A stretch of DNA of 64,000 nucleotides from a virus: positions 1 through 64,000 of the IMG/VR virus record IMGVR_UViG_3300022910_000005. One strand, given 5' to 3'. The notes beneath the pieces were generated by a model that worked only from the letters and a program-made list of their open reading frames with translations, was not told where the DNA came from and made no database searches. A program made the translations under genes and the position numbers. Shown one piece after another: positions 21,354 to 60,619 of this stretch (within the stretch, counting starts at the first letter, position 1; the number at the start of each line of letters is the position of its first letter).

Positions 21354-21472
21354 TGGATCACTGGTACTGGGCCGGTGGATTTCAGGTCGCCGTCTGGGGA
21401 ACGCTCATCCTCCAGGTCGCCACGGGCATCGTCCGTAGCATCGTCAGGGCGGCGAAGGAGGGCAAGAAGTGA
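21353..21472 (+). CDS. single-pass membrane protein, 39 aa
   Basis: ATG 21353 overlaps the previous stop and the TGA overlaps the GTG of the HNH-FtsK gene. One hydrophobic helix (FQVAVWGTLILQVATGIV) and a basic tail (RSIVRAAKEGKK), so the N-terminus should be outside. Probably a membrane partner of the translocase made from the same transcript. Confidence 0.6.
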   Translation: MDHWYWAGGFQVAVWGTLILQVATGIVRSIVRAAKEGKK

Positions 21473-33297: not shown

Positions 33298-33303
33298 GTG
33301 GTG

Positions 33304-33420: not shown

Positions 33421-33441
33421 CAGCGATCACCTCCTCCCGAA

Positions 33442-35594: not shown

Positions 35595-35776
35595 GGCGCG
35601 ACCCGGTTGGTGATCTTGCAGACTCGCTTCTCGTAGTCCTCGGGGCTGACGCCGCCGCCGCACTCGAAGGTCCACTCCGCGCCCTGCTGGGTGTCGTTGT
35701 AGGTGACCCGGCCAGACTTCTCGTCCAGCCACACCTTGTCGCCCTCGCTGTCGGTGCCGAACAGGGAGACCTTCAT
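35591..35776 (-). CDS. hypothetical protein, 61 aa
   Basis: I prefer ATG 35776 because GGAAGG lies six bases upstream; ATG 35782 is too close. Strand-forming (KVSLFGTDSEGDKVWLDEKSG, GAEWTFECGGG). First gene of a unit running to the proline-rich protein at 33304. Confidence 0.55.
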   Translation of the reverse strand: MKVSLFGTDSEGDKVWLDEKSGRVTYNDTQQGAEWTFECGGGVSPEDYEKRVCKITNRVAP

Positions 35777-35823
35777 GATCATCCTTCCATCGGGGGCAGT
35801 CGTCTCGGTCGCTCAATGAGACA

Positions 35824-35853
35824 ACAGTACTCCAGTTGACAAGCGGTTGTCAA
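35824..35853 (-). promoter_or_regulatory. minus promoter with perfect palindrome
   Basis: TTGACA (35853-35848), spacer 18, TACTGT (35829-35824). TTGACAACCGCTTGTCAA is a perfect 7-4-7 inverted repeat and directly abuts the stop codon of the endonuclease VII gene. Confidence 0.7.
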
Positions 35854-42996: not shown

Positions 42997-45561
42997 TCAA
43001 TCCATCTCGTCCCGCTTGAACCGCAGGCCACGGAACACCCGGGCGCGCGCCGGGAGCGGCGGCTGGGCCGACGAGAACGTCACGTTGGGAGCCATCGGCG
43101 GCCGGGAGATGTCCGAGGAGGCCGTCCGCACCTGGCCCTCCGTCACCCCGGCCGAGCGGACCAGTTCATGCACCCGGAACCGGCCCAGGAACGTCTCGCT
43201 GCTCCACTTCGAGTGGTTCTGGGCTACCAGGAAGTTGACGAAGTCGGTGAACAGATCCTGCCGGGCGACCATGCCGTCTGGGTCCACCTCCAGCCGGTCC
43301 ACGAAGTAGGCCATGATCCGGTCCGCCTCCATCTGCCAGCCCTTCACCGCCTCGGACACCTCCAGCGGCCGACGCTCCACCTCCACCAGCATCGGGTCCG
43401 CGAAGTAACGCATCGCGCCCTCCACCAGCCAGGTGATGATCGCGTCATGCTGATCGTCGGTGTTGTCGCGGATGCGCCGCTTCAGCGTCGGATCGCCGAC
43501 CCGGTCGTTCTCGGCCTCCGGCTTCTCCTTGAAGGTGTACGGGAAGTCCACCAGCAGCAGCCGACGCCATGTGCCCCAGTCCACTTCGGCCACCGACGGC
43601 TTCGAGTTGGACGTCACGAACATGCTGTGGCTGGCCGGGAAGGTGATCGGGTTCTGGTGCAGCATCCGGGCCGTGATGTAGCCGGTGTCGGTGATCCGCT
43701 TGATCTCCTCCACCGAAAGCGCGTGCGACTCAGGCAGTTCCTCGATCAGCGCGAACCGAACGCCCCGCAGGCTGGCCCGGTCCGGCGTCGCTCCGGTGCC
43801 CTGGCCCTTGGAGATCAGCGTCGGCTGGGCCATGTGCGCGTAGTCGCCGAGCGCCGGGAAGACGCCCTCCGTGGTGTACGCGGACTTTCCGTTGTTGCCG
43901 GTGCCGACCAGGAAGATCGCGTCCTTGGCGTTGTGGCCGGTGGCCGCCTGCCCCATCCGGATCTGCATGTAGTCGGCCTGCTCCGGCGGCAGGGCCATCA
44001 GCGCCTTGTCCCAGTCCGGATGCCGGAAGCCCTGCCGGTAGCGGCCGTTCGTGACCTTGGTGAAGTACAGGTCCGGGTCATGCTTGGAGAACTTGCCGGT
44101 CCGCAGGTCGACCACGAAGTTCGGCGTGTTCAGCAGTTCGGCGTGCGCGTCCAACTGCGCCGGGTCGGCGAACACGCCGTCGATGATCGCCAGGGTGTTG
44201 CGGATCGCGTTCATCTTGGAACGGGCCTGGAACGAGCGGTACGCCTTGGCCAACTTCAGGTACTTGTCGTCCTCGGTCTTCTTGAACTTGTCGACCATCG
44301 CCCGGAACTGCTTGGTGTAGAAGCGGGCGATCATGTTGTCGATGGCGTCCTCAGAGACTGGTGCCCACCGGCAGCCGTCCCAGCGGTGCCAGCCGACGCC
44401 GTCGGCGTGCAGCACCCGGGTGCCCATCTTCTCGGCCAGGTGCTGCGCCTGCCCGACGTCCGTGGCCCAGTCGGACAGGGCCTGCGACTCCTTGTCCTCC
44501 GGCACCGGGGGAGCACCGAGCGGCTGTGTGCCCTCAGGAGCCTCCAGATCCTCAGGCGTGACCATCTGCTCGGGATCGGCCACGATCGTCGCGTAGGCGG
44601 ACGTCCCGGCGGCCTGGGCGGGCACCGCGACGGCGGCGCTCGCGGACTTCGTGGGAGCGCCAGGGTTGATCGGCTTCTCCCAGGCCCGCTTGTTGGCCAT
44701 GCCGTCCTTCACTCCCCTGATGATCGTCGAGTTCATCGACGTCATGTCCGCGTTGCTGCGGAACGTCCAGCCAGCGATGGCGTCCAGCAGGCGGCCGATC
44801 ACCTCGTCCTCGTCCAACTGCCCGGCCCCGACGTACTGCCCGCACCAGAAGGCGATCCGGCTGGCCGTCGCGTTCCCCTGCCCGTCCGGGGCCGCCTCCA
44901 ACTGCCCGGCCAGGTCTTCGAGCCGGTCGAGCACCTCCTGCTCGGCCGCGATCGGGCCGGACTGCACCCGCTCCGGCCGCTGGACGTCCTTGCACATCTC
45001 GATCAGGTGCTCCGGCAGGTACATGAACGGCATGTCCTTGAACAGCCGGTACTGGCCGGTGCGGGGAAGGCCGGTCTTCGGGCTGATCTCCGTCACGACG
45101 GACGGCGGGGCGATCACGTAACCGTTGCCCCGGGTGTCCACGTCCGGGCCGATGCCACGCCCGGCCGCCCGGCCGCTGGTGTTGCGCAACTGCATCCCTT
45201 CCGGCATCAGGTACCAGAAGTGCAGGCCGCCGGTCCAGGACTGGACGGTGTACGTGTCGACGAAGCCGTGCTCGCCGCAGATCTTCGCCCAGGTCTCGCC
45301 GCCGACCTTGCCCTTCTCCTGGTCGGTGTCCACGTCGACCATGTAGAGCCCGGACGCGGCGGCCGAGACGCCGACGTTGGCGTAGGTGGCGTCTCTCCAC
45401 ATCCGTTCGATGATCGCCGGGTCGCTGGTCGCTTCCAGGTGGCCGTTCGATCCGTTGAGCGGGGCCTTGCTACGCGGAGTGAGCGGGAAGACCTTCAACC
45501 CCCGGCCAGCCAGGTCCAGGGCGGCCTTCTTGGTGTCTCCAGCGTCAAGTTGATAGTTCAA
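42997..45561 (-). CDS. Prim-Pol/SF3 helicase (P4-type primase), 854 aa
   Basis: The start is TTG 45561 with AAGGAG eight bases upstream. The N-terminal Prim-Pol domain has ALDLAGRGLKVFPLTPRSKA, the acidic pair D76/D78 in MVDVDTD and H114 in WTGGLHFWY, so it makes primers. The C-terminal SF3 helicase has Walker A GTGNNGKS (553-560), Walker B FALIEELPE (near 604-611) and motif C SMFVTSN (646-652). This one-piece replication protein is typical of phages and plasmids that initiate their own replication. It lies directly beside copy B of the 89-bp element. Confidence 0.9.
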   Translation of the reverse strand: MNYQLDAGDTKKAALDLAGRGLKVFPLTPRSKAPLNGSNGHLEATSDPAIIERMWRDATYANVGVSAAASGLYMVDVDTDQEKGKVGGETWAKICGEHGFVDTYTVQSWTGGLHFWYLMPEGMQLRNTSGRAAGRGIGPDVDTRGNGYVIAPPSVVTEISPKTGLPRTGQYRLFKDMPFMYLPEHLIEMCKDVQRPERVQSGPIAAEQEVLDRLEDLAGQLEAAPDGQGNATASRIAFWCGQYVGAGQLDEDEVIGRLLDAIAGWTFRSNADMTSMNSTIIRGVKDGMANKRAWEKPINPGAPTKSASAAVAVPAQAAGTSAYATIVADPEQMVTPEDLEAPEGTQPLGAPPVPEDKESQALSDWATDVGQAQHLAEKMGTRVLHADGVGWHRWDGCRWAPVSEDAIDNMIARFYTKQFRAMVDKFKKTEDDKYLKLAKAYRSFQARSKMNAIRNTLAIIDGVFADPAQLDAHAELLNTPNFVVDLRTGKFSKHDPDLYFTKVTNGRYRQGFRHPDWDKALMALPPEQADYMQIRMGQAATGHNAKDAIFLVGTGNNGKSAYTTEGVFPALGDYAHMAQPTLISKGQGTGATPDRASLRGVRFALIEELPESHALSVEEIKRITDTGYITARMLHQNPITFPASHSMFVTSNSKPSVAEVDWGTWRRLLLVDFPYTFKEKPEAENDRVGDPTLKRRIRDNTDDQHDAIITWLVEGAMRYFADPMLVEVERRPLEVSEAVKGWQMEADRIMAYFVDRLEVDPDGMVARQDLFTDFVNFLVAQNHSKWSSETFLGRFRVHELVRSAGVTEGQVRTASSDISRPPMAPNVTFSSAQPPLPARARVFRGLRFKRDEMD

Positions 45562-48471: not shown

Positions 48472-48731
48472 GCAACGGAAAGCGTTGTGGGCGAACGGGT
48501 AAGGTCAGATTCCGGGATGACGATGAGGCGAAGGCTGCACTGAGCCGCATCAGGTCCGACCGGGGAGAGCGGCGGGCGAAGGTGCCGGTGCGCTGGTACG
48601 ACGACTGCGAGTACTGCGGTGGCGTGCATCTGACCAGCCAGGAGTACCACAACGCGAACGGGACGATCTGGGAAGAGGAGGACGGCCTGCACGGGTTCCA
48701 TCCGCTGCCGGACGCCGACCGGGACTACTAA
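48468..48731 (+). CDS. small zinc-binding protein, 87 aa
   Basis: GTG 48468 overlaps the previous stop. RCGRTGKVRFRDDDEAKAAL, VPVRWYDDCEYCGGVHLTSQ give C-x(n)-C-x2-C with a histidine; this arrangement is common to small actinobacterial phage proteins with a zinc ribbon. Last gene before the terminator at 48744. Confidence 0.6.
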   Translation: MSNGKRCGRTGKVRFRDDDEAKAALSRIRSDRGERRAKVPVRWYDDCEYCGGVHLTSQEYHNANGTIWEEEDGLHGFHPLPDADRDY

Positions 48732-48743
48732 CTGAACGCAGCC

Positions 48744-48774
48744 GCCCGCCACCTCGTAGTAAGAGGTGGCGGGC
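48744..48774 (+). terminator. terminator
   Basis: GCCCGCCACCT/AGGTGGCGGGC, an 11-bp perfect stem with a 9-base loop, followed by TTCTGCGTT. Confidence 0.75.
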
Positions 48775-48781
48775 TTCTGCG

Positions 48782-48810
48782 TTGACAAGCGGTTGTCAAG
48801 TCTGTTACCT
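48782..48810 (+). promoter_or_regulatory. promoter of the secretion-channel operon
   Basis: TTGACA (48782-48787), spacer 17, TTACCT (48805-48810). TTGACAAGCGGTTGTCAA is a perfect 7-4-7 palindrome over the -35. Unlike most others the gene has a normal leader with a GGGAGG ribosome site. Confidence 0.75.
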
Positions 48811-48843
48811 TGATAGCAAGTTAGCAACCACGGGAGGAACCCC

Positions 48844-49137
48844 ATGAACCACCTGCACACGCTGGCCGTGCTCGCGGCTGCCCCCAACATCAGCGTCGAC
48901 AAGATCAAGCAGTCGGCGCTGATGATTCTCACCGCCCTGATCTGCATCGGCCTCGCCTACATGACCCTCAAGGTCATCTGGAAGGACACCGACGACGGCG
49001 ACTACAGCAGCGTCGCGAAGAAGGTGCTCACCTCGATCATCGGGATGATCCCCTTCGTCATGGCCGGATCGCTGGCCATCGCCGCCGGGTGGGCGACCGC
49101 GCTGCTGAGCCTGCTGACCGGGCTGGTCTCGAAGTGA
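48844..49137 (+). CDS. VirB2/pilin-like small membrane protein, 97 aa
   Basis: ATG 48844 follows GGGAGGAACCCC. A short N-terminal segment ending AVLAAAPNIS could be a signal peptide; then two hydrophobic helices (near 27-44 and 66-92) are separated by a polar loop (KDTDDGDYSS). This two-helix layout is that of VirB2/TrbC-type pilins or TcpD-like channel parts. Being first gene of an operon with VirB3-, VirB4- and VirB6-like products supports this. Sequence alone is too short to be certain. Confidence 0.6.
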   Translation: MNHLHTLAVLAAAPNISVDKIKQSALMILTALICIGLAYMTLKVIWKDTDDGDYSSVAKKVLTSIIGMIPFVMAGSLAIAAGWATALLSLLTGLVSK

Positions 49138-49946
49138 GCCCCGTGCAGCGGAACGACGACGACGGACGCCAGATCCGGCAGCCGTGGCTGGGCGCGAAAG
49201 GCGCACGCTGGCCGATGGACTGGACCTACGACGAGTGGGCGCTCGGCCTGTTCGGGTTCATCGTCGGCGGGACGCTGATCACCTGGGTGGTCCCGGCTGC
49301 CGTCATGGCGTTCATCGTGATCCGTTCCGCTGCACGGTTCATCTCGATCCGCAACAACCCGCACGCGCCCCGCAAGACGTACCTGCTCGTCGTGGCGATG
49401 ATGACGACGCTCTGCCTGATCCTGTCCGTCAACCCGATGTTCTGGCTCAAGCCGATCTTCCTGCCGTTCGCGCTGGTCGCGTCGCTGTTCATGCCCTCGC
49501 GCACCGTGAAGGCGTACGGCAAGTACGTCGGCTGGAACCGGCCGCTGTCCTACTGGATCGCCATGCCGTTCCGGATCGCCCGGGGGCCGCGCCTGGTGCC
49601 CACCGACACGATCAACCCGGCGATGCTCGGCATGGGCCTCGACCTGGAGAGCCTCGACCGCGATGACACGGCCGACCTGGTGCCCGGCCGGATCGTCACG
49701 ATCCCCCGGCTGAAGGCCCCGGCCAGGAAACCTGCGCCGCAGGCGCTTGCCCCCAAGCCCGTCAAGGCGACCATCACCAGCGCACCGAAGAAGACCGCCC
49801 GCGTCGCCCGCACCCCGCTGACCGAGCGCCGCCTCGTCGCACCGGGCGCTCCGGTCCGCCACCGCACCCGCAAGCAGAACCTGATCTACCGCACGCCGAC
49901 CGGCCTGATGGTCTTCGGCACCGAGTACCGGATGGAGAGCCGCTGA
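49134..49946 (+). CDS. VirB3/PrgI-like membrane protein with basic tail, 270 aa
   Basis: GTG 49134 overlaps the preceding stop. Hydrophobic helices near 40-65 (LGLFGFIVGGTLITWVVPAA) and 90-125 (YLLVVAMMTTLCLILSV, FLPFALVASLF) sit in the first half. The second half is a soluble tail rich in proline, alanine, lysine and arginine (PARKPAPQALAPKPVKA). Its place right before the VirB4-like gene and the N-terminal membrane pair match VirB3/PrgI subunits in actinobacterial secretion systems. It ends overlapping the VirB4 start. Confidence 0.6.
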   Translation: MSPVQRNDDDGRQIRQPWLGAKGARWPMDWTYDEWALGLFGFIVGGTLITWVVPAAVMAFIVIRSAARFISIRNNPHAPRKTYLLVVAMMTTLCLILSVNPMFWLKPIFLPFALVASLFMPSRTVKAYGKYVGWNRPLSYWIAMPFRIARGPRLVPTDTINPAMLGMGLDLESLDRDDTADLVPGRIVTIPRLKAPARKPAPQALAPKPVKATITSAPKKTARVARTPLTERRLVAPGAPVRHRTRKQNLIYRTPTGLMVFGTEYRMESR

Positions 49947-52633
49947 TGGGCCTGTTCGCCGCCCCCAAGAAGACGACCTGGACGACACCGGTCCGCAAGA
50001 CGATCGCTCTCGCGCCGACGGCCAAGCAGGTGGTGCGCAACCTGATCCTGCTGAAGGACGGCAGCGTGCTGGCCGGTTACCGGATCGGCGACGCACGCTG
50101 GGACTTCACCGGCAAGGACGCGAAGATCATGCGGATGGACCAGGACGCGGACGTGTTCGCCGCGCTGGTCGGCCGGTCCTACCACGAGCGGGTCACCACC
50201 CGCCCGCACCCGGTCGCGACCTGGGCCGGGAACCTCGACAAGCGGACGCCACGCCCGACGCCCGACATCCACACCTGCGACCTGAGCGCGGGCCTTTCCC
50301 AGGGCGACCTGCTGAACGGCCGGTGCGGCTGCGAGACGTGGGGCCGTCACCTGATCCGCCAGCAGGACGTCATCGCCCGTTCCGGCATGAACGACAAGAT
50401 CGTCTTCCGCTACTTCGGCCTGACCGTGAAGGTGTCGCCGCGCACCGACCTTCGCAAGCAGATCAACGAGTTCGTGAAGACCGGCAAGGCGTCCGGCGTC
50501 GTGGCTCGGCTGATCGCCGACGAGAAGCGCGTCAGCGACATCGTGACCGGCTGGCCGGGCTCCAAGCGGATGAGCGAGTACGAGCAGGGCTGGCTGCGGG
50601 TCCGCTCGCTGTCGCCCGGCGTCATCCCCACCGGCATCCACAGCAAGGACCGGGGCGGCTGGGACGAACTGGCCCTGCCTGCCCTCGCGTCCGACACCCG
50701 GTGGGCCGAGACGCCTTTCGGCCGGACCGTGACCGTCACCTCGTTCGCCGACGGCAAGCAGGTCGAGTCGGCCGTGCGCGTGCTGACGATGGCGCGGATG
50801 GCCGACCTGAACTACCCGGAGAACGGGATGCCGCCGTGGCAGGTGCACGGCGAGTCCGTCCTGGACGCTTCCGGCCGCCCGTTCCCGGTGGAGTGGTCGG
50901 TCGTCGGCCGTCTGCGCTCCGGCGAGGAACTGGCCAAGGAGGTGGAATTCGAACTGCGGCGCGTCCAGCACGTCAAGGGCGACTACGAGGATCACAGCGA
51001 ACTGCCGCCGTCGAACGTCGGCAAGGCCATCGCCGTCGCCGTCGACACCCGCGACCAGGTCACCACCGGCCAGGCTGCTGTCGCCGCCAGGTTCCAGGGA
51101 CAGATCAACGTGATCATCTCCGGCCAGGCGACCGAGAACCTCACCGCCGAGCAGGTGGTCGAGGAGCGGTGCGCCGCGTTCACCCGGATGTACGCCAACG
51201 CTGGCCTGCGGATGGACTTCACCGGCTCCGACAGCCAGTCGTTCATGCTGGCCAGCACGGTGCCCGGTGAGCCGTACGACCGGCTCGGCTTCCAGCGTCG
51301 CCTGCGGCTGCCGTTCCTGACGGCCGGGATGCCGAACGTCTCCTCGTCCGTCGGTGACGGCGTCGGCCCGTACCTGGGCCACACCCGGGGAGCGACCCGG
51401 CGCGCGGTGCAGCACGACCCGCACTTCGCCACGGAAGGTCTGCGGACCGGCCGGGGCCAGAACATGCACGTCGTGCTCGGCACGCTCGGTGCCGGGAAGT
51501 CCGTCGTGACCGGCTCCATCGGCTACAACGCCGTCCGCCGGGGCATCCGCACGGTCATCTCCGACCCGTCCGGCCCGCTCGCGGCGCTGACGAAAATGCC
51601 GGAGATCGCGGACGTTTCGCAGGAGATCAACCTGCTGAACGGCGCGCGGGGCATCCTGTCCCCGGCCGCACTGATCCGCGACCCGCTGCTGACCGAGTAC
51701 GACGAGCCCGGCCAGTTCGCGGAGGCCCTGGGCCAGGCGGCGGCCGAGCGGCGGGACCTGATGGTCGACATGGCCAAGCGCTGCCTGCCGGACTACCTGA
51801 TGAAGGACCAGGCCGAAGCCCGCACGGAGGCGGCCCTGCGCCTGGCCGCTCGCCAGCACGCCGAGACGCGGGACGGCTGGAAGCAGACCGACACCATGTG
51901 GGACCTGATGCGTCCGCTGAAGGACAGCACCGACGACTGGGCGAAGGCCGTCCACGGTGCGCTGACGGACGCCTCCACCGCTCCGCTGCTGCGCCTCATG
52001 TTCCCGGAGCCGGGCGCTCCCGGCAGCATCGGGCACTACGACAAGACGCTCACGGTGATCACTACCCCTGGCATCGTGCGGGCCGTGGACGGCACGCCGC
52101 GCAAGGACTGGAACCCGCTGGAGGTCGGGGCCGACGTGGTGCTGCGCCTGGTCGGACTGTTCACCGACCGGCTGATCTACTCGAAGACCCGCAGCGAACG
52201 CTGCATCGCGATCTTCGACGAGGCCGAGTCGCTGACGGACTTCGGGCCGGGCCGGTCCATGCTGTCCCGGCTGGGCCGCGACCACTCCAAGTGGAACATC
52301 GCCGTCTACCTGGCCGTGAAAAGCATCAACCCGCAGATGCTTTCGGGGGAGTTGAAGAACTTCCTCGCCAGCGTGTTCGTCGGCCGGATGGCATCGCGCG
52401 AACCGGCCGAGGCCGCGCTGGAACTGCTGGGGCTGACCGACAAGCGGTACGCGCAGGTGCTCATGGGCCTGTCCACGTACGTGCCCGGCGAGTTCGTCCA
52501 CGCCGACGTGGCCGGGAACGTGGGGATGCTGAAGGTCGACGTGGACTACCACCCGGCCCTGAAGGACGCACTGCTGACCGACCCGACTCCGGAAGGCTCC
52601 GGCCACTGGACCCTTGAAGAGGAGATCGCCTGA
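49946..52633 (+). CDS. VirB4-like conjugation ATPase, 895 aa
   Basis: ATG 49946 overlaps the preceding stop. Walker A is GTLGAGKS (512-519) and Walker B CIAIFDEAES (753-762, D758-E759), followed by LGRDHSKWNIAVYLAVKSIN and a region (FVGRMASREPAEAALELLGL) as in VirB4/TraC/TcpF ATPases. The first 450 residues form the usual N-terminal docking part. VirB4 proteins power assembly of type IV secretion channels and pili. A length near 800-900 is normal. Next to VirB6- and VirB8-like genes, this is the strongest evidence that the operon encodes a conjugation-type channel. It is not a packaging terminase: no nuclease motif is seen. Confidence 0.85.
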   Translation: MGLFAAPKKTTWTTPVRKTIALAPTAKQVVRNLILLKDGSVLAGYRIGDARWDFTGKDAKIMRMDQDADVFAALVGRSYHERVTTRPHPVATWAGNLDKRTPRPTPDIHTCDLSAGLSQGDLLNGRCGCETWGRHLIRQQDVIARSGMNDKIVFRYFGLTVKVSPRTDLRKQINEFVKTGKASGVVARLIADEKRVSDIVTGWPGSKRMSEYEQGWLRVRSLSPGVIPTGIHSKDRGGWDELALPALASDTRWAETPFGRTVTVTSFADGKQVESAVRVLTMARMADLNYPENGMPPWQVHGESVLDASGRPFPVEWSVVGRLRSGEELAKEVEFELRRVQHVKGDYEDHSELPPSNVGKAIAVAVDTRDQVTTGQAAVAARFQGQINVIISGQATENLTAEQVVEERCAAFTRMYANAGLRMDFTGSDSQSFMLASTVPGEPYDRLGFQRRLRLPFLTAGMPNVSSSVGDGVGPYLGHTRGATRRAVQHDPHFATEGLRTGRGQNMHVVLGTLGAGKSVVTGSIGYNAVRRGIRTVISDPSGPLAALTKMPEIADVSQEINLLNGARGILSPAALIRDPLLTEYDEPGQFAEALGQAAAERRDLMVDMAKRCLPDYLMKDQAEARTEAALRLAARQHAETRDGWKQTDTMWDLMRPLKDSTDDWAKAVHGALTDASTAPLLRLMFPEPGAPGSIGHYDKTLTVITTPGIVRAVDGTPRKDWNPLEVGADVVLRLVGLFTDRLIYSKTRSERCIAIFDEAESLTDFGPGRSMLSRLGRDHSKWNIAVYLAVKSINPQMLSGELKNFLASVFVGRMASREPAEAALELLGLTDKRYAQVLMGLSTYVPGEFVHADVAGNVGMLKVDVDYHPALKDALLTDPTPEGSGHWTLEEEIA

Positions 52634-54429
52634 TGTTGAAGGGTTTTCACCGCTACGTGCGGCTGGCCCAGTTATCGGTGGTGCTGATGCTGGTGGCGTT
52701 CGCACTGATCATCCACGCCGCCTCGGCCCACGCTTCCGCCCCGGCCGGGATCGACGTGCCGGGCGTGGAGGTATGCCCGAAGGAGGCACCGTTCGCGCAG
52801 ACGCCGGAGTCCGGGCTGGCCGGGCTTCTCGGTGAGCGTCCGCTGAAGATCACCACCGACAACTCCCCCGATCACATCTGGACGACGGGCGGCTTCGCTG
52901 GCCTCCAGTCGAACACCTACGACCTCGGCTGTGGCATGAACCCCGGCAACTGGGTGAAAATCACCAGCGCGCACACCGGTTCGTCGATGAGCAACTTCTT
53001 CCTGTCGGCCGGGGACTCGATGGTGTCGCTGACGGACTCGATCGACCGGCGGGCGTGGCAGCCGCAGTGGCTGCTGTCGTTCCTGGACGACTTCATGTTC
53101 CGGGTGACGGGGATGACGAACACGCTCATCCTGCTGCCGTTCCTGGGCCTGGCGCTGGCGCTGGTCGGAGTGATCCTCGTCTGGAAGTCCAACGATGGTG
53201 ACTATGCCGCTGCCGCAACGAGTGTCGGCTGGATCTTCATCGTCCTTGCCATCACGTCGCTGCTGGTGACGACGCCGCTGATCGTCGCGAAGTTCGGCAC
53301 GAGCGTCGGCTCCACGTCGGTCGCGGTGCTGAACGGCGGCGCGAACGCCTCCGACGCCGTCACCAACCAGGTGGTCAAGAACGTCGAGTACCAGGGCTGG
53401 CTGCGTCGCAACTTCGGCCCGTCGGACACGGAGGTCGGCAAGAAGTACGGGCCGGAACTGCTGGCGGCCAGCCGGGTTTCGTGGGCGGAACTGGACAAGG
53501 TCAACGCCCTGCCCGCCGACAAGCAGTCGCAGGCGCGTTCCGATCTGACGGACGCGAAGGCGAAGAAGTTCAAGGACATCGCCGCGAAGGTGAAGGACGA
53601 AGACCCGACGGCCTACAAGTACCTGACCGGTGAGATCATCGGCACCCAGGAGAGCATCGTCGAGGTGATCTTCCTGTTCATGGCGTGCGCGCTGCGGATG
53701 ATGGTGGCGATCCTGATGATCGCCTGCGTGATCAGCCTGGCCCTGATCAGCATCCTGTGGGTGCTGCTGACGCCGGTCCTCATCCAGCCGCCGTTCAAGA
53801 TGCTGGACGGGCGCACACTCGGCACCGGCCTGCTGAACGGTTCGATGCGCGCCCTGCTGTACGTCGGCGAAGCGGCGCTCGGCGCATGGCTTTACGGCTT
53901 CTTCCTCCAGGCGTGCATGGCCCCGGGCCTGAACCTCTGGTGGTCGCTGCTGCTGCTGACGATCGGCACGCTGATCGCCTGGTTCATGATCGGCCCGTTC
54001 GGCAAGTTGATGGCGATCCTGTCGCTGGGCCGGGCCGACACCGGAGCCTCCTACGTCGGCAAGGCCGTGAAGGGCGCGCTGATGGCCTGGGGCGGCGGCC
54101 TGATCGCCGGGCTGGCGGCGGCGAAGTCGGTCAACGATCACGAGGACGAGGAGCGGGCGGCGGCCCCAGAGCGGCTGTCTGAGACGATCCAGCAGCCGCA
54201 GGTCGTGCACGCCACCGTCTACAACCCGTGGGAGCACCAGATGGACGACACGGTGCGCACCGAGCACTTCCCCGACGCAGACCGGACGCTGCCGACCGGC
54301 GGCACCCCGGAACTGCCGATGTACCGGCGCGGTGCCGAACCGGCCCCGCCGCCGGACGAGACCGCCAGCCCGTACGCCACGTACGAGCGGGAAAGTTCTT
54401 CTGATGACAACGAGGGAGCGCACCTGTGA
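52633..54429 (+). CDS. VirB6/TrbL-like polytopic membrane protein, 598 aa
   Basis: ATG 52633 overlaps the VirB4 stop. A signal peptide (LSVVLMLVAFALIIHAASAHASA, about residues 14-36) comes first, then an extracytoplasmic part, membrane helices near 162-182, 197-218, 340-385, 410-450 and 475-490, and a cytoplasmic tail with acidic and proline-rich stretches. This matches the topology of VirB6/TrbL-like channel proteins of Gram-positive conjugation systems. The soluble domain at about 220-330 carries repeated helices (SRVSWAELDKVNALP). Sequence similarity itself was not tested. Confidence 0.75.
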   Translation: MLKGFHRYVRLAQLSVVLMLVAFALIIHAASAHASAPAGIDVPGVEVCPKEAPFAQTPESGLAGLLGERPLKITTDNSPDHIWTTGGFAGLQSNTYDLGCGMNPGNWVKITSAHTGSSMSNFFLSAGDSMVSLTDSIDRRAWQPQWLLSFLDDFMFRVTGMTNTLILLPFLGLALALVGVILVWKSNDGDYAAAATSVGWIFIVLAITSLLVTTPLIVAKFGTSVGSTSVAVLNGGANASDAVTNQVVKNVEYQGWLRRNFGPSDTEVGKKYGPELLAASRVSWAELDKVNALPADKQSQARSDLTDAKAKKFKDIAAKVKDEDPTAYKYLTGEIIGTQESIVEVIFLFMACALRMMVAILMIACVISLALISILWVLLTPVLIQPPFKMLDGRTLGTGLLNGSMRALLYVGEAALGAWLYGFFLQACMAPGLNLWWSLLLLTIGTLIAWFMIGPFGKLMAILSLGRADTGASYVGKAVKGALMAWGGGLIAGLAAAKSVNDHEDEERAAAPERLSETIQQPQVVHATVYNPWEHQMDDTVRTEHFPDADRTLPTGGTPELPMYRRGAEPAPPPDETASPYATYERESSSDDNEGAHL

Positions 54430-54923
54430 TCACCTGGATGTTCCAGAGCCCCGACCGGCTGAAGCGGGTGGCGATCACCTTCGCGCTGACCTGCGTGACG
54501 CTGACGATCCTGCTGACGATCGTCCGGGTCCACGACCTGGCTTCCCACCGGCCGACCGCCGAGCCGACCTACGGGGCCACCACGGAATCGACCGCTACCG
54601 GCCTGCTGCCGCCGTCTCCCAGCCCCGAACCGGCTCCGGCGACCACGGAGTACGGACCGGCCACGCCGATCGCCCTGGAGGCCGCTCAGGCGTTCCTCCA
54701 GGGGGACCGGAGCCGGTTCGCTGAACTGGCCCAGCCGGACGTCGTCGAGTCCGCCAACGAAGCGCCCACGCCCGGCGGGCAGATCACCGCGCCCGGCCGC
54801 GTCCTGCTCGGCGGGCCGACCCAGCAGAAGATCCTGGTGCCGACCAGCGAAGGCGACCTGACCCTCACCATGATCGTCATCGACGGGGCCTGGAAGGTCG
54901 CCGGGATGGAGTACGCGAAGTGA
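54426..54923 (+). CDS. VirB8/TcpC-like single-pass protein, 165 aa
   Basis: GTG 54426 overlaps the VirB6-like stop. One membrane helix (VAITFALTCVTLTILLTIV, about 14-33) is followed by a proline-rich linker and a C-terminal alpha/beta domain with a helix (ALEAAQAFLQGDRSRFAELA) and strands (LTLTMIVIDGAWKVAGMEY). That layout fits the NTF2-like periplasmic domain of VirB8/TcpC proteins, which link channel parts outside the membrane. At 165 residues it is shorter than most. Confidence 0.65.
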   Translation: MITWMFQSPDRLKRVAITFALTCVTLTILLTIVRVHDLASHRPTAEPTYGATTESTATGLLPPSPSPEPAPATTEYGPATPIALEAAQAFLQGDRSRFAELAQPDVVESANEAPTPGGQITAPGRVLLGGPTQQKILVPTSEGDLTLTMIVIDGAWKVAGMEYAK

Positions 54924-55051
54924 GCCGGTCGCAGCGGAGGATAGAACTGGACCTGAAGTACGGAATTGTCACCATGATGATCGTCGAGGCGGCCTGCTTC
55001 GCCGTTCCGTTCTGGCTGCTGGTTGCGCTCGTCCGGTGGTGGGCGGCGTGA
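54920..55051 (+). CDS. single-pass membrane protein, 43 aa
   Basis: GTG 54920 overlaps the preceding stop. RRIELDLKYGIVTMMIVEAA and CFAVPFWLLVALVRWW give one membrane helix of about 24 residues. Its place inside the channel operon suggests a small accessory subunit; no family recognised. Confidence 0.6.
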   Translation: MSRSQRRIELDLKYGIVTMMIVEAACFAVPFWLLVALVRWWAA

Positions 55052-55248
55052 GCAACTGGGTGCCGCCGCACATTCCGATCCGGGACCATCCCGGGCCGCC
55101 CCGCTGCTGGATGTGCAACCGGCGGCTGCGCTGGTGGCAGATGACCACCTGCCGGACCTGCTCGCCGCACTTCCACGACTTCATGTGGCTGCACAACCAC
55201 ATGGGCCGCAACACGTTCGCCCCACCCGACCGATGGAGGAACCGATGA
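55048..55248 (+). CDS. small zinc-ribbon protein, 66 aa
   Basis: GTG 55048 overlaps the previous stop. CWMC and CRTC, 13 residues apart, with histidines nearby (SPHFHDF, WLHNH) form a zinc ribbon, rich in tryptophan and arginine. Its role in the channel operon is unknown. It overlaps the next gene by four bases. Confidence 0.6.
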   Translation: MSNWVPPHIPIRDHPGPPRCWMCNRRLRWWQMTTCRTCSPHFHDFMWLHNHMGRNTFAPPDRWRNR

Positions 55249-56228
55249 AGATCTGGATCGCTGCGGGCGCAGCCAGCCTGGCCGGGCTCGTCGCGGTTCC
55301 GCTCGCCATCACCAGTCTGATGTTCGGCCCACCGCCGCTGCCCGCGCTCAGCATCGCCACCCAAGAGGTCTCCTCCTGCACGGTGCAGATCCCGGCCAGC
55401 GCGCGCACGGCCGGAGCACTGTCGGCCGAGCAGGTCGCGAAATATGCGTACGCGGCCGGTTTCCGTGGGCAGGACATCAACATCGCCGTGGCCGTGGCCC
55501 GCGCCGAGTCCGGCTGGCGGCCGACCGCAACCCTGCTGAACACCAACGGCAGCACCGACCACGGCCTGTTCCAGATCAACTCGATCCACGCGGCGATCCT
55601 CGCGGAAGGGAACTGGGCTGACCCGGCCGACAACGCGAAGATGGCGTTCAAGGTCTGGACGCAGGCGGGCGGCAAATGGTCCCCGTGGGTGACGTACTGG
55701 CGCGGCACCTACAAGCAGTACCTGACGGACGTCGACCCGAAACCCACCTGCACCACACCGAAGTCGACCGGCCCGTGCAAGAAGGTGAGCGGTGAGTTCT
55801 CCAACGGGCTCATCCCGGCCAGCGCGCTCTGCACCCTGTGGACCAACCGCCACCACCGCCTGCGGGCCGACGCCGCCAACTCGTTCGACGCGATGAGCCG
55901 GGCGTACATGGCGAAATTCGGTGTGCGGCTGTGCCTTACGGACTCCTACCGGCCGCTGTCCGTGCAGATCGACCTGAAGCGGCGGAAGGGTTTCCTAGCC
56001 GCGAAGCCCGGCACGTCCAACCACGGCTGGGGTCTGGCTGTCGATCTGTGCGCTCGCGGCAGCCAGGAGAACCCGCAGCCGTGGAACCGTGGCACCGAGG
56101 ACGACGTGTGGCTGCACCAGAACGCACCGAAGTTCGGCTGGGTCCACCCCGGCTGGGCTGAGCCGTCCGGCTCGAAACCCGAACCCTGGCACTGGGGTTA
56201 CAACCTCGACAAGGAGCACGCACCGTGA
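55245..56228 (+). CDS. bifunctional cell-wall hydrolase: lytic transglycosylase-like plus VanY-type peptidase, 327 aa
   Basis: A membrane anchor or signal (residues 5-28) comes first. Residues 60-150 form a lysozyme-like domain with the catalytic glutamate E88 in VARAESGW and DHGLFQINS. Residues 195-320 match the D-alanyl-D-alanine carboxypeptidase/VanY fold: TDSYRPLSVQ, SNHGWGLAVDL (H260, D267) and PWHW (H316). VirB1/TcpG-type wall hydrolases open peptidoglycan for conjugation channels. Alternatively it could serve the phage in particle entry or lysis, but the operon position favours the channel. ATG 55245 overlaps the previous stop. Confidence 0.85.
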   Translation: MKIWIAAGAASLAGLVAVPLAITSLMFGPPPLPALSIATQEVSSCTVQIPASARTAGALSAEQVAKYAYAAGFRGQDINIAVAVARAESGWRPTATLLNTNGSTDHGLFQINSIHAAILAEGNWADPADNAKMAFKVWTQAGGKWSPWVTYWRGTYKQYLTDVDPKPTCTTPKSTGPCKKVSGEFSNGLIPASALCTLWTNRHHRLRADAANSFDAMSRAYMAKFGVRLCLTDSYRPLSVQIDLKRRKGFLAAKPGTSNHGWGLAVDLCARGSQENPQPWNRGTEDDVWLHQNAPKFGWVHPGWAEPSGSKPEPWHWGYNLDKEHAP

Positions 56229-56473
56229 GCGATCCGCTTGACCTTCTGGGTGTTGCCGCCATGCGAAAACTACGGGCCCAGCAGGAACTTGCCGCAGCGA
56301 ACGCCTCCCTGGCAGCCGCCCTGCGACTCATGGCAGCCCGGCCTGGCGAACCGAAGTGCAGGGTCGGGCAGCACGCACGGGCCTACCTCGGCCTGCATGG
56401 ATTCGGACCAGAAGAGATGACGGCGCTCGGTATTTCGGACAGCAGTGTCAGGAACATGCTCGACGCGGGGTAG
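56225..56473 (+). CDS. hypothetical protein, 82 aa
   Basis: GTG 56225 overlaps the preceding stop. A long helix (AMRKLRAQQELAAANASLAA) is followed by HARAYLGLHGFGPEEMTALG and SDSSVRNML, which looks like a small helix-turn-helix. It ends the channel operon; perhaps its regulator. Confidence 0.55.
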   Translation: MSDPLDLLGVAAMRKLRAQQELAAANASLAAALRLMAARPGEPKCRVGQHARAYLGLHGFGPEEMTALGISDSSVRNMLDAG

Positions 56474-56481
56474 GCAGCGAA

Positions 56482-56513
56482 AAGCCCGGCCAGGCAACCG
56501 CCCGGCCGGGCTT
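56482..56513. terminator. bidirectional terminator
   Basis: AAGCCCGGCC/GGCCGGGCTT stem with loop AGGCAACCGCCC, between the plus channel operon and the minus lysis/tail genes. Confidence 0.8.
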
Positions 56514-56543
56514 CGTCGTGTTCGCGACCTGCCAGACGAAGGA

Positions 56544-56786
56544 TCAGACGTCAGACAGCGTGCTGGCCGAGTCCGGGTTGCCGACCTGCTTGGCCACGAA
56601 CACCTTGACGGAGTTCAGACCGGCCAGGATGATCGGGGCCGACCAGATCGGCAGATCGAGGGAGTCGATCGACAGCAGGACGGACGTCACGACACCGTAG
56701 GACGTGGTCCAGAAGATCCGCTCCAGGGCGTCCTTCATGAACTTCGGCTGACGGTACCGGGGGACGGCCGGGGTTTCGTTGGTCAC
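56544..56786 (-). CDS. holin-like membrane protein, 80 aa
   Basis: GTG 56786 has AGGAGAAAAC upstream. A basic N-terminus (RYRQPKFMKDALERIFW), one or two hydrophobic segments (SYGVVTSVLLSIDSLDLPIWSA, IILAGLNSV) and the ending FVAKQVGNPDSASTLSDV are typical of actinophage holins. Holins make pores through which the endolysin leaves. Directly downstream of the amidase gene. Confidence 0.75.
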   Translation of the reverse strand: MTNETPAVPRYRQPKFMKDALERIFWTTSYGVVTSVLLSIDSLDLPIWSAPIILAGLNSVKVFVAKQVGNPDSASTLSDV

Positions 56787-56803
56787 TGGTTTTCTCCTGA
56801 GGG

Positions 56804-57835
56804 TCAGACCGAGCGGGATTCGCCGGTCGGGTTGGACGGGATCAGCGTACTCGCCAGGTCGTTGACCTTGCCTTCGATCGTGGCCAGGGAGAGCGCCGTC
56901 GCCTCGCGGGCGGCCTTCTCCTCGTCCAGCGCGGCGGTCAGCGTCACCAGCAGGTTGTAGACCCGCTCGGCGGCCGGGCCGCCCCACTTCGCGAGCCGGT
57001 CGTAGGTCAGTTCGTCGCCCAACTTCCACGGCGTGGCGCTGGGGCCGTTGTTGCTGTTCATCTGGTCGACCATGTACTGGCTGGTCAACTTGACGGACAG
57101 GTCGTCCTTGGTGAGTGCGGCCACGCTGGGCTCCTTCGGTGGGTCCGGCTTCTCGACCGGAGGCTTGGGCTTCGGGGGGTTGAGCGCGCTCACGACGCGC
57201 GGGATGACGATCGCCTTCAACTGGGCGATCCGGGCGGGACCGGGGCAGCCCTTGCCGACCGCGCCAGACCACTGCACGCCGCCCTTCACCAGCCAGCCGG
57301 AGCCGGACGGCTTGAAGCCGGTCGAATGCTTGCAGCCCTGCCGGTGGTAGGCGATCCCCCGGCGGCCGGGCTTCGTGTCCGGCACCAGCCTGGCCGGGAT
57401 TCCGACCTTGTGGCACTCGAAGTGGCTCGGGCAGTCCTTGTGGGCTTCCTTCGAGCAGAGCCAGGTCACCAGCCGGACGATCGCGTCGATCTGCTCGGGC
57501 GTCCATCCGGCGATGTCCTCGACGAGACGCGGTGCGTTGTCAGCGGTTTCGATGGAGATGACCCCCATGTTTCCGTTGAGGTTCGCGTCGGCCTTGTACG
57601 CCGTGTCGCCCCATTGGTAGACGACGCCGTTGAGGTCGGCGGCCTTGTCGCCGCCCCACTTGCCGCCGACACCGAAATGCGATTCGGTGCCGGACCAGCC
57701 GTTCTGGTGGAACATCGCGTCGGTCGACGTGAGGAAGCCGACCATTGTGTGCAGGCAGATGAAATCGTGCGACGTCATCGCCGCCTGGTGACCGGCGGCG
57801 AGCGGTCGCCACCGGGCTCGGGAGTACCTAGCCAT
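56804..57835 (-). CDS. endolysin, N-acetylmuramoyl-L-alanine amidase, 343 aa
   Basis: Residues 20-175 form an amidase_2 (PGRP-like) domain: CLHTMVGF (H29), SHFGVG, VVYQWGD and HFECHKVG. A proline-rich linker (NPPKPKPPVEKPDPPKEP) leads to a C-terminal helical part with LTSQYMVDQM and a coiled-coil stretch. It cleaves the bond between muramic acid and L-alanine to release progeny. Start ATG 57835. The gene overlaps the next upstream gene by eight bases. Confidence 0.85.
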   Translation of the reverse strand: MARYSRARWRPLAAGHQAAMTSHDFICLHTMVGFLTSTDAMFHQNGWSGTESHFGVGGKWGGDKAADLNGVVYQWGDTAYKADANLNGNMGVISIETADNAPRLVEDIAGWTPEQIDAIVRLVTWLCSKEAHKDCPSHFECHKVGIPARLVPDTKPGRRGIAYHRQGCKHSTGFKPSGSGWLVKGGVQWSGAVGKGCPGPARIAQLKAIVIPRVVSALNPPKPKPPVEKPDPPKEPSVAALTKDDLSVKLTSQYMVDQMNSNNGPSATPWKLGDELTYDRLAKWGGPAAERVYNLLVTLTAALDEEKAAREATALSLATIEGKVNDLASTLIPSNPTGESRSV

Positions 57836-58262
57836 CCTGTCGGTCCTTCATCTCGTCAGTCCGGGCACCGAGCCTGGTCACCTGGGCCAGCAGCGCGTCG
57901 TATCGCAGGTTCGCTTCGGCGCGTTCGGTGCGGATCTGGTTCTCCAATCGTGCCACATCGGCACGAAGTCGCTCCTGATCGAACAGCCAGCGGGCGCGCT
58001 CGGTCGCGTGCCGGGCTTCGTCGGCGATGCGCTGCGAACGCTCCTCGGCGAGCATCTCTCTCAACCGAGCCACGTCCTCGCCCAGTTCGTCGCGCGCTCG
58101 CGCGACGGTGGCGATGTTGGCGTCGACAACTCCGGCATAGCGCATTTCCTTTGGGGGTTCGGCCCGCCAGGCTCGGAAGGCGTCGTAGGCATACTTGACG
58201 CCCCCTCCTGAGAGTACCGCGAGAAACACGGTCACCCACGGGTCCGGTGTGGGGGTGGCCAT
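57828..58262 (-). CDS. membrane-anchored coiled-coil protein, 144 aa
   Basis: ATG 58262 overlaps the previous stop. One hydrophobic segment near 9-26 (WVTVFLAVLSGGGVKYAYDA) is followed by a long charged helix (IATVARARDELGEDVARLRE through NQIRTERAEANLRYDALLAQ) predicted as a coiled coil. Position next to the lysin suggests a lysis accessory (spanin-like or antiholin), though Gram-positive hosts lack an outer membrane. Function uncertain. Confidence 0.65.
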   Translation of the reverse strand: MATPTPDPWVTVFLAVLSGGGVKYAYDAFRAWRAEPPKEMRYAGVVDANIATVARARDELGEDVARLREMLAEERSQRIADEARHATERARWLFDQERLRADVARLENQIRTERAEANLRYDALLAQVTRLGARTDEMKDRQDG

Positions 58263-58720
58263 CAGCAGTCCTTGCGTCGGGTACGGACAATCTCCTTGAT
58301 CAACGCGGCCTCCTGCTCTTTCAGCCACCACCCCCGCAGTAGGCATACGCAGCCGACCGTGAAGAAGAACGCCGCCGTGGCCCCGGCTCGGCCCCAGGTC
58401 GACGCTCCGATCACCGCGACCGAGAAGGCCACGAGGGTCGTTGCGAACAGGTACAGACCACTGGCGATCAGCCCGAGACGCCGGGATGCGATCCCGAACG
58501 CCACGGAAGAGCCAGCCATGATCATCATTACGGCCCAGACAAGTTCCAACTTGTCCGGCAATGCTTGCAGGCTCACCGACGGAGAGTTGCCGGTGATGAT
58601 GTTCATGACGATCGCTGCCGCCCAGATCACCAGGCCCATCTCCAGGCCGTATTCACCGATCGCGTGCGGAAGCCGCCTCCTGAGGACGAACCGTCGCGCC
58701 CTTGCTCGCCACGGAGACAT
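58262..58720 (-). CDS. membrane protein, 152 aa
   Basis: I choose ATG 58720, which has GGAAGG six bases upstream. Four hydrophobic helices (GLVIWAAAIVMNIIT, ELVWAVMMIMAGSSVAFGIA, LGLIASGLYLFATTLVAFSV, GATAAFFFTVGCVCLLRG) with short loops and a basic tail. In this position between lysin and tail genes, similar proteins are counted as lysis-cassette membrane proteins. Its stop shares one base with the next gene's start. Confidence 0.7.
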   Translation of the reverse strand: MSPWRARARRFVLRRRLPHAIGEYGLEMGLVIWAAAIVMNIITGNSPSVSLQALPDKLELVWAVMMIMAGSSVAFGIASRRLGLIASGLYLFATTLVAFSVAVIGASTWGRAGATAAFFFTVGCVCLLRGWWLKEQEAALIKEIVRTRRKDC

Positions 58721-58790
58721 CAAGATCCTTCCACCACAACGATTCGAGCCTGGACCCTGATCGTATGTCAACCCGCCGGTAACGTGCGGA

Positions 58791-59507
58791 TCAGAACACC
58801 TGCGTGGGCGTCACGTACATCCGGCTGGCCGTCGAAACGGTCGTGGTGTTCGCGTTCGAAGCACCCTGAGCCCACTGCCACTGCAACGTCCCGGCCGCCG
58901 TCACGGTCACCAGCATGTCCTCATGCAACACCGACGCGGCCAGGCCAGCATCCAGACCGATCCGCACGGCGGTCGCGAACCCGTGGCCGGACGCCCGGCT
59001 GACTGATCCGGCCGACTGACCCTCGGCCGCCGTCGTGTTCTCGCCCGGACCCATCACCGAGCGGCCGTTCGAGGATATCGTCCCGCCCGTGAAGGCCCAG
59101 GCCGTCCGCAGGTCCGGGACGTCGGACGGCGATGAGCAGTGAGCGAACAGTTCGATCCGGTACGTGCCGATCGACAGCGGCCACGCCAAGTCCGTGTCGT
59201 TCACCAGCGTGGTCGACGAAGTGACGCCCTGGCTGGCCAGTTTCCGCTTGCAGATGGTGCCGGACGGGATGCCGGACAGGCGACCGCCGACGATCCACGT
59301 CGACTTCTGCTTGACCATCCACACCCGGTCGCCGACCAGCAGTTGCGAATCCTGGTCTCGCGCAAGCCATGCCAGGTCCGTCTGGTCGGTGCGCACCTTC
59401 CGGGCCGCGCCCGTGTCGATCGCGGTGATGACGCCGATTCGCAGGTCGGCCGTCGGCTCCTTGTCGGCCAGGAGCCCGGCCAGGTCTTGCGTCTGGTCAA
59501 TGCTCAC
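58791..59507 (-). CDS. minor tail protein-like, 238 aa
   Basis: GTG 59507 overlaps the previous stop. Helix (QDLAGLLADK), then strands with LRIGVITAIDTGAARKVRTD and LLVGDRVWMVKQKSTWIVGG (an OB-like barrel as in base-plate proteins), then a galactose-binding-like strand domain with a TRP-rich end. The DQDSQLLVGDRVWMVKQ pattern is common in actinophage tail proteins downstream of the DUF5047-like gene. Confidence 0.7.
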   Translation of the reverse strand: MSIDQTQDLAGLLADKEPTADLRIGVITAIDTGAARKVRTDQTDLAWLARDQDSQLLVGDRVWMVKQKSTWIVGGRLSGIPSGTICKRKLASQGVTSSTTLVNDTDLAWPLSIGTYRIELFAHCSSPSDVPDLRTAWAFTGGTISSNGRSVMGPGENTTAAEGQSAGSVSRASGHGFATAVRIGLDAGLAASVLHEDMLVTVTAAGTLQWQWAQGASNANTTTVSTASRMYVTPTQVF

Positions 59508-60619
59508 GTAATGGCCTCCTCGCACCGCAGGCGCGTGTGGTCGCCCTGCACGTTCACCAGCGGGATCGTTCCGCTGATCACCTTGTACCGGCCGTCGGTG
59601 GACGAACGGTTGTCGATCACGTTGATCACGTCGTAGATGTCGTGGCCGGGATGTCCACGGGTGAAGATCTCGACCTCCTGCTTCATTCCGCTGACGCGGG
59701 GCAGGGTTTCAGCAGCGATGGCGGCGGCCTGCACGTCGTTGACGATGATGTCGGACCAGACGCCGTACGGACGGCGGCCGAAAGGTCCGTCCGAATAGGT
59801 GGCACTGTTCGGGTCCGTGTCCCACAGTTCAGCGCGGATCGGCAGGTAGTCGGGATGCTGGCCGCGCACGATGACGCCGGAGTAGACCGCGTCCACCGGC
59901 CGGAACCTCCTGGACACATTCATCAGCACGCTGTGCAGACCGGTGGTGTACGTGACCCCGGTGTCCACTTCGGTGATCGGTTCGACGACCGCCTGCCCCA
60001 ACTGGTCGAAATAGCAGACGTACGAGGATGCTTCGCACAACGCACGGATCGCATCCCACGGCGACGTCAGCCGGTCGAACACCACCTCGGGCGTCACCCA
60101 CGCTGACGTGGTGACGCGGATGGCGACCGTCGGCATCCGGGCGGCGATGATCGCTGCGATGGCCGTGTGGATCGGCGTGCCGTCCTCCACCACCCACGGG
60201 TCCTCGAACCGCCTGCTGCGCAACGAGTCGACCCGGTCGAACCCCTTGATCTCCACGACGGTGCCGTCCGAGTGCGAACGCACCTCCGGCTCGCTGATCC
60301 CGAACACGCCCATCGGAACGTATTCGTAGCCGGACACTCCTTCGTCGTCGGTCACCCACAGACCGCGATAGATCTTCAGTTCCGTGCCTTTTGGCGTGAG
60401 CAGGTCGGTCGCCTTCGTGGGCGTCAGTTCGCCGTCCGCGTCGCTGATCGTGAAGTGGGCCTCCCGCCGCACCGCAACGTCGTCGATGCCGATGTAGCCG
60501 GAGATCAGCACGTCCAACGTTGTGATGAGCGTGTCCGCGTACAGCACGTCGATCTTCGTCGACCATCTCCGGGTGGAGTCGAGCAGCGCAAGGTCGAACG
60601 CCTTGCTGGTCCTCCACAC
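59504..60619 (-). CDS. DUF5047-like phage tail protein, 371 aa
   Basis: GTG 60619. After an N-terminal helix, it has TTLDVLISGYIGIDD, REAHFTISDADGELTP and KIYRGLWVTDDEG, then FGISEPEVRSHSDGTVVEIKGFDRVDSLRSRRFEDP and a C-terminal part DNRSSTDGRYKVISG. These are hallmarks of the tail protein group annotated DUF5047, thought to be a base-plate hub component. It sits between the fibre and the 58791 gene as usual in actinophages. Confidence 0.8.
   Translation of the reverse strand: MWRTSKAFDLALLDSTRRWSTKIDVLYADTLITTLDVLISGYIGIDDVAVRREAHFTISDADGELTPTKATDLLTPKGTELKIYRGLWVTDDEGVSGYEYVPMGVFGISEPEVRSHSDGTVVEIKGFDRVDSLRSRRFEDPWVVEDGTPIHTAIAAIIAARMPTVAIRVTTSAWVTPEVVFDRLTSPWDAIRALCEASSYVCYFDQLGQAVVEPITEVDTGVTYTTGLHSVLMNVSRRFRPVDAVYSGVIVRGQHPDYLPIRAELWDTDPNSATYSDGPFGRRPYGVWSDIIVNDVQAAAIAAETLPRVSGMKQEVEIFTRGHPGHDIYDVINVIDNRSSTDGRYKVISGTIPLVNVQGDHTRLRCEEAIT

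Follow-up and report, generated by a model that had tools for sequence, protein, structure and literature searches.

Can a virus spread from cell to cell by contact? The question is raised by a type IV secretion system (T4SS) borne by a phage. Phages and conjugative elements are usually treated as separate routes by which DNA moves, and a conserved, vertically inherited T4SS in apparently non-integrating phages would join the two. The window analyzed here comprises the first 64,000 bases of the IMG/VR record IMGVR_UViG_3300022910_000005 (hereafter G000; 80,684 bp in all), and genes were called over the whole record with a simple in-house caller. An initial annotation of the window had proposed a conjugation-type channel operon of the Gram-positive kind at positions 48,844-56,473. 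The genes lie where it placed them, the components find their matches, and we consider it very likely that this operon of seven genes on the plus strand encodes a T4SS channel. The annotation had also suggested a search of related phage genomes for the same operon. IMG/VR profile scans recovered the operon, with the same phage backbone and the same junction, in seven further contigs from other metagenome datasets (G001-G007). We found no description of a T4SS in a phage in the open-access literature, and a recent review of T4SS nomenclature makes no mention of phages.

The operon reads as follows:

48844..49137, plus strand: membrane protein of 97 aa at a TcpD-like position, with two transmembrane helices; present in all ten operons
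49143..49946, plus strand: VirB3/TcpE-like protein of 267 aa with two transmembrane helices, directly 5' of virB4
49946..52633, plus strand: VirB4-type ATPase (TcpF-like) of 895 aa, by Pfam AAA_10, NCBIfam TcpF and tblastn
52633..54429, plus strand: VirB6-like polytopic membrane protein of 598 aa, with an N-terminal helix and about five further transmembrane helices
54426..54923, plus strand: VirB8-like protein of 165 aa, with a single transmembrane helix and one NTF2-like domain
55245..56228, plus strand: VirB1-like wall hydrolase of 327 aa, with SLT_3 (E=2.9e-19) and VanY (D,D-carboxypeptidase; E=2.6e-14) domains, both Pfam and over cut-off
56225..56473, plus strand: small soluble protein of 82 aa, the last operon gene, overlapping the hydrolase gene by 4 bp; conserved in G000-G004 and G007

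In actinobacteria, T4SS operons on plasmids or chromosomes hold, at the equivalent positions, proteins that match those of the channel. The 895-aa protein had been read as a VirB4-type ATPase, and its Walker motifs are indeed those described, both intact (Walker A GTLGAGKS, Walker B IAIFDEAE). Its family matches are to Pfam AAA_10 (E=7.6e-19, over cut-off) and, as best NCBIfam match, to the conjugal ATPase TcpF of mating-pair formation class FA (MPF-FA; E=1.2e-13, under that model's very high cut-off), not to packaging ATPases. By tblastn, its closest plasmid relatives are borne by linear Streptomyces and Nonomuraea plasmids (27-29% identity along 95-97% of the protein, E down to 1e-76), and profile searches of the PDB gave marginal matches to TrwB and to a VirB4-like protein (E ~1e-3).

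Smaller components were compared with their counterparts by hhalign, for which six mismatched control pairs scored 0.1-0.2%. The VirB3-like protein, already recognized as such, reached 88.0% against its chromosomal/plasmid counterpart, with no Pfam TcpE match. The 97-aa protein has the two helices first noticed in it; the label of pilin-like, for which there is no evidence, was dropped because its profile matches the first small protein of collinear chromosomal actinobacterial T4SS operons (69.5%). It is better read as the first of two small membrane proteins preceding virB4, as in MPF-FA systems. The assignments of a polytopic VirB6-like and a single-pass VirB8-like protein also held: sequence profiles match the counterparts of both, and the fold matches are weak. 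In Streptomyces plasmids, the gene that follows virB4 matches the VirB6-like protein by tblastn (E=1e-15); its AlphaFold model is of low confidence, and the most probable Foldseek match is TrwI/VirB6 of R388 (8rt9), with a probability of 0.99 but E=0.23. PDB profile searches with the VirB6-like and VirB3-like proteins gave no match. The VirB8-like protein scores 94.8% against its chromosomal counterpart by hhalign, and its model (predicted local distance difference test, 80) is NTF2-like, with many NTF2 matches in Foldseek, among them the VirB8 domains of an IcmL-like protein, OrfG and PrgL (E 0.01-0.06). Both domains announced for the wall hydrolase, lytic transglycosylase and VanY, are present with intact catalytic motifs, and its start, first placed at 55023, is corrected to 55245. 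The 82-aa protein had no family match in Pfam and PHROG scans. From PADLOC there were only generic motor matches.

That the carrier is a phage is plain from its other genes. Gene calls and profile scans identify G000 as a tailed double-stranded DNA (dsDNA) actinophage, with large terminase (TerL; phrog_19179, 5e-142), portal (phrog_104, 4e-97), major capsid protein, protease, tape measure (phrog_58, 2e-58) and lysis genes. The regions that frame the operon are:

56,544-80,541, minus strand: late genes of G000 (amidase endolysin, tail, tape measure, major capsid protein, maturation protease, portal, TerL)
56544..63745, minus strand: the tail and lysis genes adjoining the operon (membrane/holin-like protein, amidase endolysin, tail)
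42997..45561, minus strand: PrimPol-D5 helicase (Pfam Prim-Pol and D5_N; phrog_1156, E=2.6e-94)

Profile scans thus confirm the earlier description, in which the operon adjoins lysis and tail genes. On the operon's other side, the PrimPol-D5 helicase is the first large replication gene, and the early half of G000 holds an exonuclease, a helicase and numerous small genes besides. The major capsid protein is 63% identical to those of Arthrobacter phages (Eileen, Bridgette) and TerL about 47-55% identical to those of various actinophages, so that the host is most likely an actinobacterium; the GC content of G000 is 66.6%. Since the gene order of G002 runs across both ends of G000, the record is near complete. 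All members of the group (G000-G007) are metagenomic, from uncultured viruses of soil. Distant from the tail module, at 27217-29505, lies a gene for a repetitive, tail-fibre-like protein of 762 aa (phrog_13352, 7 stretches), which is GC-rich (72-74%) and adjoins a gene pair kept at 58-70% in G001.

The operon has been inherited with its phages. In G001-G007 it lies 3' of the tail and lysis genes and, where the contig extends there, before the replication side; it occupies the late-gene strand in these seven and is inverted only in G000. The eight VirB4 sequences form a single clade with 100/100 support, whose exact neighbor is unsure, as long branches meet. Pairwise distances of VirB4 and VirB6 correlate with those of one tail protein (Mantel r=0.89 and 0.88, p<0.001) and of a second tail protein (r 0.68-0.70, p<0.005). 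In VirB4, VirB6, VirB8 and the hydrolase, nonsynonymous divergence is lower than synonymous divergence (dN < dS), and the 97-aa protein evolves too fast to judge. As a separate observation, the inverted block of G000 spans 48735-56515, with breakpoints near the flanking hairpins described below; the idea of an invertible segment was rejected, as neither long inverted repeats spanning the operon nor a serine recombinase were found.

Among 84,980 species genomes, no G000-type VirB4 exceeded 33% identity, and hence no lysogen is known. In a set of 50,697 phage records, the only VirB4 matches were in Streptococcus phage IPP61, whose gene bears the annotation of a conjugative transposon protein, and in two Enterococcus records without annotation; no actinophage record had a VirB4. 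Two unrelated virus records hold another branch of this T4SS: G008 (IMGVR_UViG_2923649072_000003, 25150-36032) and G009 (IMGVR_UViG_3300018946_000033, 505-12251). Both have integrases; they may add to the phage T4SSs or may be prophages that adjoin an integrative and conjugative element (ICE). Because their provirus borders are uncertain, neither is taken here as a secure case of a phage. The protein at the VirB6 position of G008 matches the CD3337/EF1877 mobilome membrane family, below cut-off. Four more virus records (L228, which is IMGVR_UViG_3300012351_000007, L229, L230 and L231) hold a distant VirB4 (28-30%), and two of them hold a terminase.

The genes that usually accompany a conjugation channel were sought in the same phages. 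The initial annotation saw no relaxase, and neither did we: no TrwC or Relaxase family match was obtained in the seven records searched (G000, G001, G002, G005 and G006 among them), and scans of large open reading frames (ORFs) gave none. In G000, G001, G002, G005 and G006 there was likewise no tyrosine integrase (Phage_integrase), no Resolvase and no ParA (AAA_31); integrases occurred in G008 and G009 only. Judged by partition and replication genes, G000 is not a phage-plasmid, having no ParA and a phage-like PrimPol-D5 replication module. Nor did these searches find in it the relaxase that marks conjugative elements transferring single-stranded DNA or the integrase that marks ICEs and actinomycete ICEs (AICEs).

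There is, however, a gene that the initial annotation overlooked, and whose product is a likely candidate for the coupling protein of the channel:

21469..23136, plus strand: HNH nuclease fused to an FtsK/SpoIIIE translocase, 555 aa, proposed coupling protein (Pfam HNH, E=4.6e-9; FtsK_SpoIIIE, E=7.3e-13)

Both the HNH residues at its N-terminus (DH...N...H) and its Walker A motif (GETMSGKT) are intact. The fusion is found in G000, G001, G002 and G005, the four longest genomes of the clade, and an IMG/VR scan returned, apart from G000 itself, only the other three, all with the operon. Among plasmid genes, the protein is matched best by FtsK genes from plasmids of Gordonia, Streptomyces and Rhodococcus (along up to 77-80% of its length, E down to 1e-26), and several of the plasmids with a matching FtsK also carry this T4SS (NEAU-S7GS2, 891-h, SN-593, CP049837, CP123383, CP088909). 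FtsKs of other phages match only the motor (44% of the length, E=1e-10), and the HNH domain was absent from all four plasmid FtsKs scanned. In the G000 group the gene is not adjacent to the operon; G008 and G009 have an FtsK gene within a few kilobases of theirs.

When and with what would such an operon be expressed? Successive genes are separated by 5, -1, -1, -4, 321 and -4 bp, the 321-bp gap holding two small, unconserved ORFs. As the gaps are tight and hairpins stand on both flanks, the seven genes likely form a single transcription unit. The elements concerned are:

48735..48783, plus strand: upstream hairpin, probable terminator insulating the operon (24-nt arms, 88% complementary; RNA fold of 48728-48795 at -41.7 kcal/mol, z=-7.7)
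48782..48817, plus strand: candidate operon promoter region (18-bp palindrome TTGACAA-GCGG-TTGTCAA, then TACCTT at -10 distance)
56482..56515, no single strand: strong bidirectional hairpin separating the operon from the lysis genes, which converge on it (fold z=-3.7 on the plus strand, z=-5.8 on the minus strand)
293, 649, 1569, 2808, 4154, 4699, 6666, 9423, 12348, 15409, 17639, 17650, 24393, 35836, 42972, 42983, 46748 and 48782: sites of the palindrome in the window

The palindrome (TTGACAA-N4-TTGTCAA) is exact just 5' of the first operon gene. With up to two mismatches, G000 has 18 sites, against a mean of 0 in 20 shuffles; 17 are intergenic and none lies within structural genes. Such palindromes abound in G001 and G002 too and are absent in G005. 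Their position at early promoters suggests a phage-wide regulon. The operon promoter was not picked out by a simple scan for sigma-70 consensus sequences, and the case for it therefore rests on conservation: a similar TTGWCA-N17/18-TATGNT arrangement precedes the first operon gene in most relatives. In the simplest reading, the operon would be insulated from late transcription and share a regulator with early genes. One of the palindromes lies between the arms of a divergent gene cluster (8443-9403 and 9755-10045), conserved in G001, G002 and partly in G005, which has no Pfam match and is a candidate regulatory switch.

The explanation that we favor, with about even confidence, is that phage DNA passes between cells through this channel, without a relaxase and driven by the FtsK-type protein. 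The operon would be expressed from its own promoter, apart from the late genes. VirB3, VirB6 and VirB8 would then form, with the VirB4 motor, a channel through membrane and wall, the SLT-VanY hydrolase opening the cell wall. The HNH-FtsK protein would recognize and cut phage DNA, supplying the break otherwise made by a relaxase, and would feed the DNA, probably double-stranded, into the channel. Finally, the DNA would enter a touching cell, a route that would suit mycelial hosts. In this scheme we infer four parts: DNA as the substrate, its double-stranded form, the role of the HNH domain and the cell-to-cell direction. The presence of the FtsK-type partner gene strengthens the case for DNA transfer. 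A more ambitious and clearly more doubtful version is that this virus clade possesses its own relaxase-free conjugation machine, in which HNH-FtsK cuts the dsDNA genome and pumps it through the T4SS, giving the phages a second, particle-free route of spread.

Several points weigh against DNA transfer. The group has no relaxase that we could find, no known origin of transfer (oriT) and no cultured host. In G000 about 26 kb separate the FtsK gene from the operon, and the two are not co-transcribed; moreover, phages that have no T4SS can also carry FtsK-like genes. Phage HNH proteins often serve packaging. The operon is not essential to the wider group: a more distant relative with the same capsid type, G023 (capsid 68%), spans the junction without it, and the operon is thus an accessory module there. 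Patescibacteria, finally, retain relaxase-less T4SSs, apparently for other purposes (PMC12102498), and the chromosomal Cmd proteins of Streptomyces coelicolor, which include a VirB4-like member, act not in plasmid transfer but in sporulation, mutants of the operon being defective in sporulation and chromosome segregation (PMC2782261).

Two of these points lend themselves to other explanations, each of which we hold to be unlikely though worth keeping in view. If the Patescibacterial systems serve other functions, the phage channel might similarly export a phage-encoded protein, for instance one that excludes or kills competing phages or neighboring cells, with no DNA moved at all. The relaxase families tested are indeed absent, and the operon ends with a conserved small protein of unassigned function. 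However, no effector-like or toxin-like gene was recognized in the operon, and the four longest genomes of the clade have an FtsK-type DNA translocase whose homologues sit on T4SS plasmids.

The Cmd phenotype suggests instead, with similarly low probability, that the complex acts on the infected cell itself, either by remodeling the envelope (in lysis or superinfection exclusion) or by interfering with septation and segregation in a filamentous host. Its location beside the lysis genes, on the late-gene strand in seven of the eight phages, would fit such a role. Yet a hairpin separates the operon from the late genes and a promoter-like site of its own precedes it, and a full VirB3/4/6/8/1 set with a coupling translocase exceeds what lysis needs. 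Moreover, homology of the phage VirB4 to that of SLP2, the plasmid that defines the Cmd comparison, was undetectable beyond Walker A.

That an ICE or a conjugative plasmid had inserted into a phage, or that the assembly is chimeric, is very improbable and largely refuted. Pieces of ICEs bearing VirB4 do occur in phage records, as in IPP61, and G008 and G009 with their integrases could be prophages beside an ICE. For the G000 group, however, the divergence of VirB4 tracks that of the tail proteins within one fully supported clade, and on this ground we reject a chimera or a recent ICE insertion. The same junction in eight contigs from different metagenomes, and the lack of integrase, resolvase, ParA and relaxase in the records searched, point the same way; the assembly error that the initial annotation had named as a possible undoing of its proposal is excluded by the seven additional contigs and by co-inheritance with tail genes. 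Least probable of all, and rejected, is that the 895-aa protein is a motor of the packaging or FtsK type, with unrelated membrane proteins as neighbors: Walker motifs alone cannot separate these families and the Foldseek E-values of the VirB6 and VirB8 models are weak, but each gene has a collinear homologue in actinobacterial T4SS operons, the ATPase matches TcpF and the phage has a separate TerL.

DNA transfer through the channel, our favored explanation, can be set against several known systems. The closest known operons are those of linear plasmids of Streptomyces (NZ_CP029542, pRVR2, pSM17C, 891-h, NBC_01304) and Nonomuraea (NZ_CP107854). They share with the phage the order small transmembrane proteins - VirB4 - VirB6 - VirB8 - wall hydrolase; they have an FtsK/SpoIIIE or T4SS coupling protein (T4CP)-type gene near the operon, and those inspected are typed as non-mobilizable by MOB-suite. 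They differ in that their VirB4 is only 27-30% identical to that of the phage, their hydrolase is NlpC/P60 (C40) rather than VanY, their scanned FtsKs are devoid of HNH and most carry ParA. Collinear homologues of the channel genes are also widespread in chromosomal T4SS operons of Kineosporia, Nocardioides, Micromonosporaceae and Glycomyces, with VirB4 at 30-33% identity; in the tree, VirB4 of G000-G007 falls outside these.

With the MPF-FA systems (pCW3 Tcp, Tn916, ICEBs1) the phage shares a TcpF-type VirB4, a pair of small VirB3-type proteins before virB4, a large VirB6, a VirB8 and an SLT-type hydrolase. The paired small proteins 5' of virB4 are described for this class, a subset of which has the FtsK-like coupling protein TcpA (PMC12857230). 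In contrast to them, the phage has no relaxase that was found, VanY in place of CHAP/NlpC, HNH fused to FtsK and a phage context; its VirB8 has one domain, whereas those of MPF-FA systems in the Tn916 superfamily have two (BETA class). Arthrobacter phages Eileen and Bridgette have the same capsid type and no VirB4.

SLP2 and Cmd were considered as direct homologues and set aside. The comparison was made with SLP2, not with CmdB: only Walker A aligns with the VirB4-like protein (hhalign 17%), and SLP2 proteins at the VirB4, VirB6 and VirB8 positions have no detectable homology to the phage beyond it. Since nothing but Walker A and the FtsK could be aligned with SLP2, both SLP2 and Cmd are kept as analogues only. 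The record NC_004934 proved to be pSV2 and was left out of the comparison. SLP2 nevertheless combines an FtsK, a wall hydrolase and a VirB4-like ATPase, and its FtsK is related to that of the phage (hhalign 97%). Like the transfer proposed here, SLP2 and the TraB-type conjugation of Streptomyces are relaxase-independent and use an FtsK-like translocase; TraB carries dsDNA between cells in this way, and TcpA of pCW3 is similar enough to FtsK for dsDNA transfer to have been suggested there as well (PMC12857230). A compact T4SS with an FtsK-type partner, carried by a phage, offers a setting in which this question of relaxase-free, double-stranded transfer can be asked.

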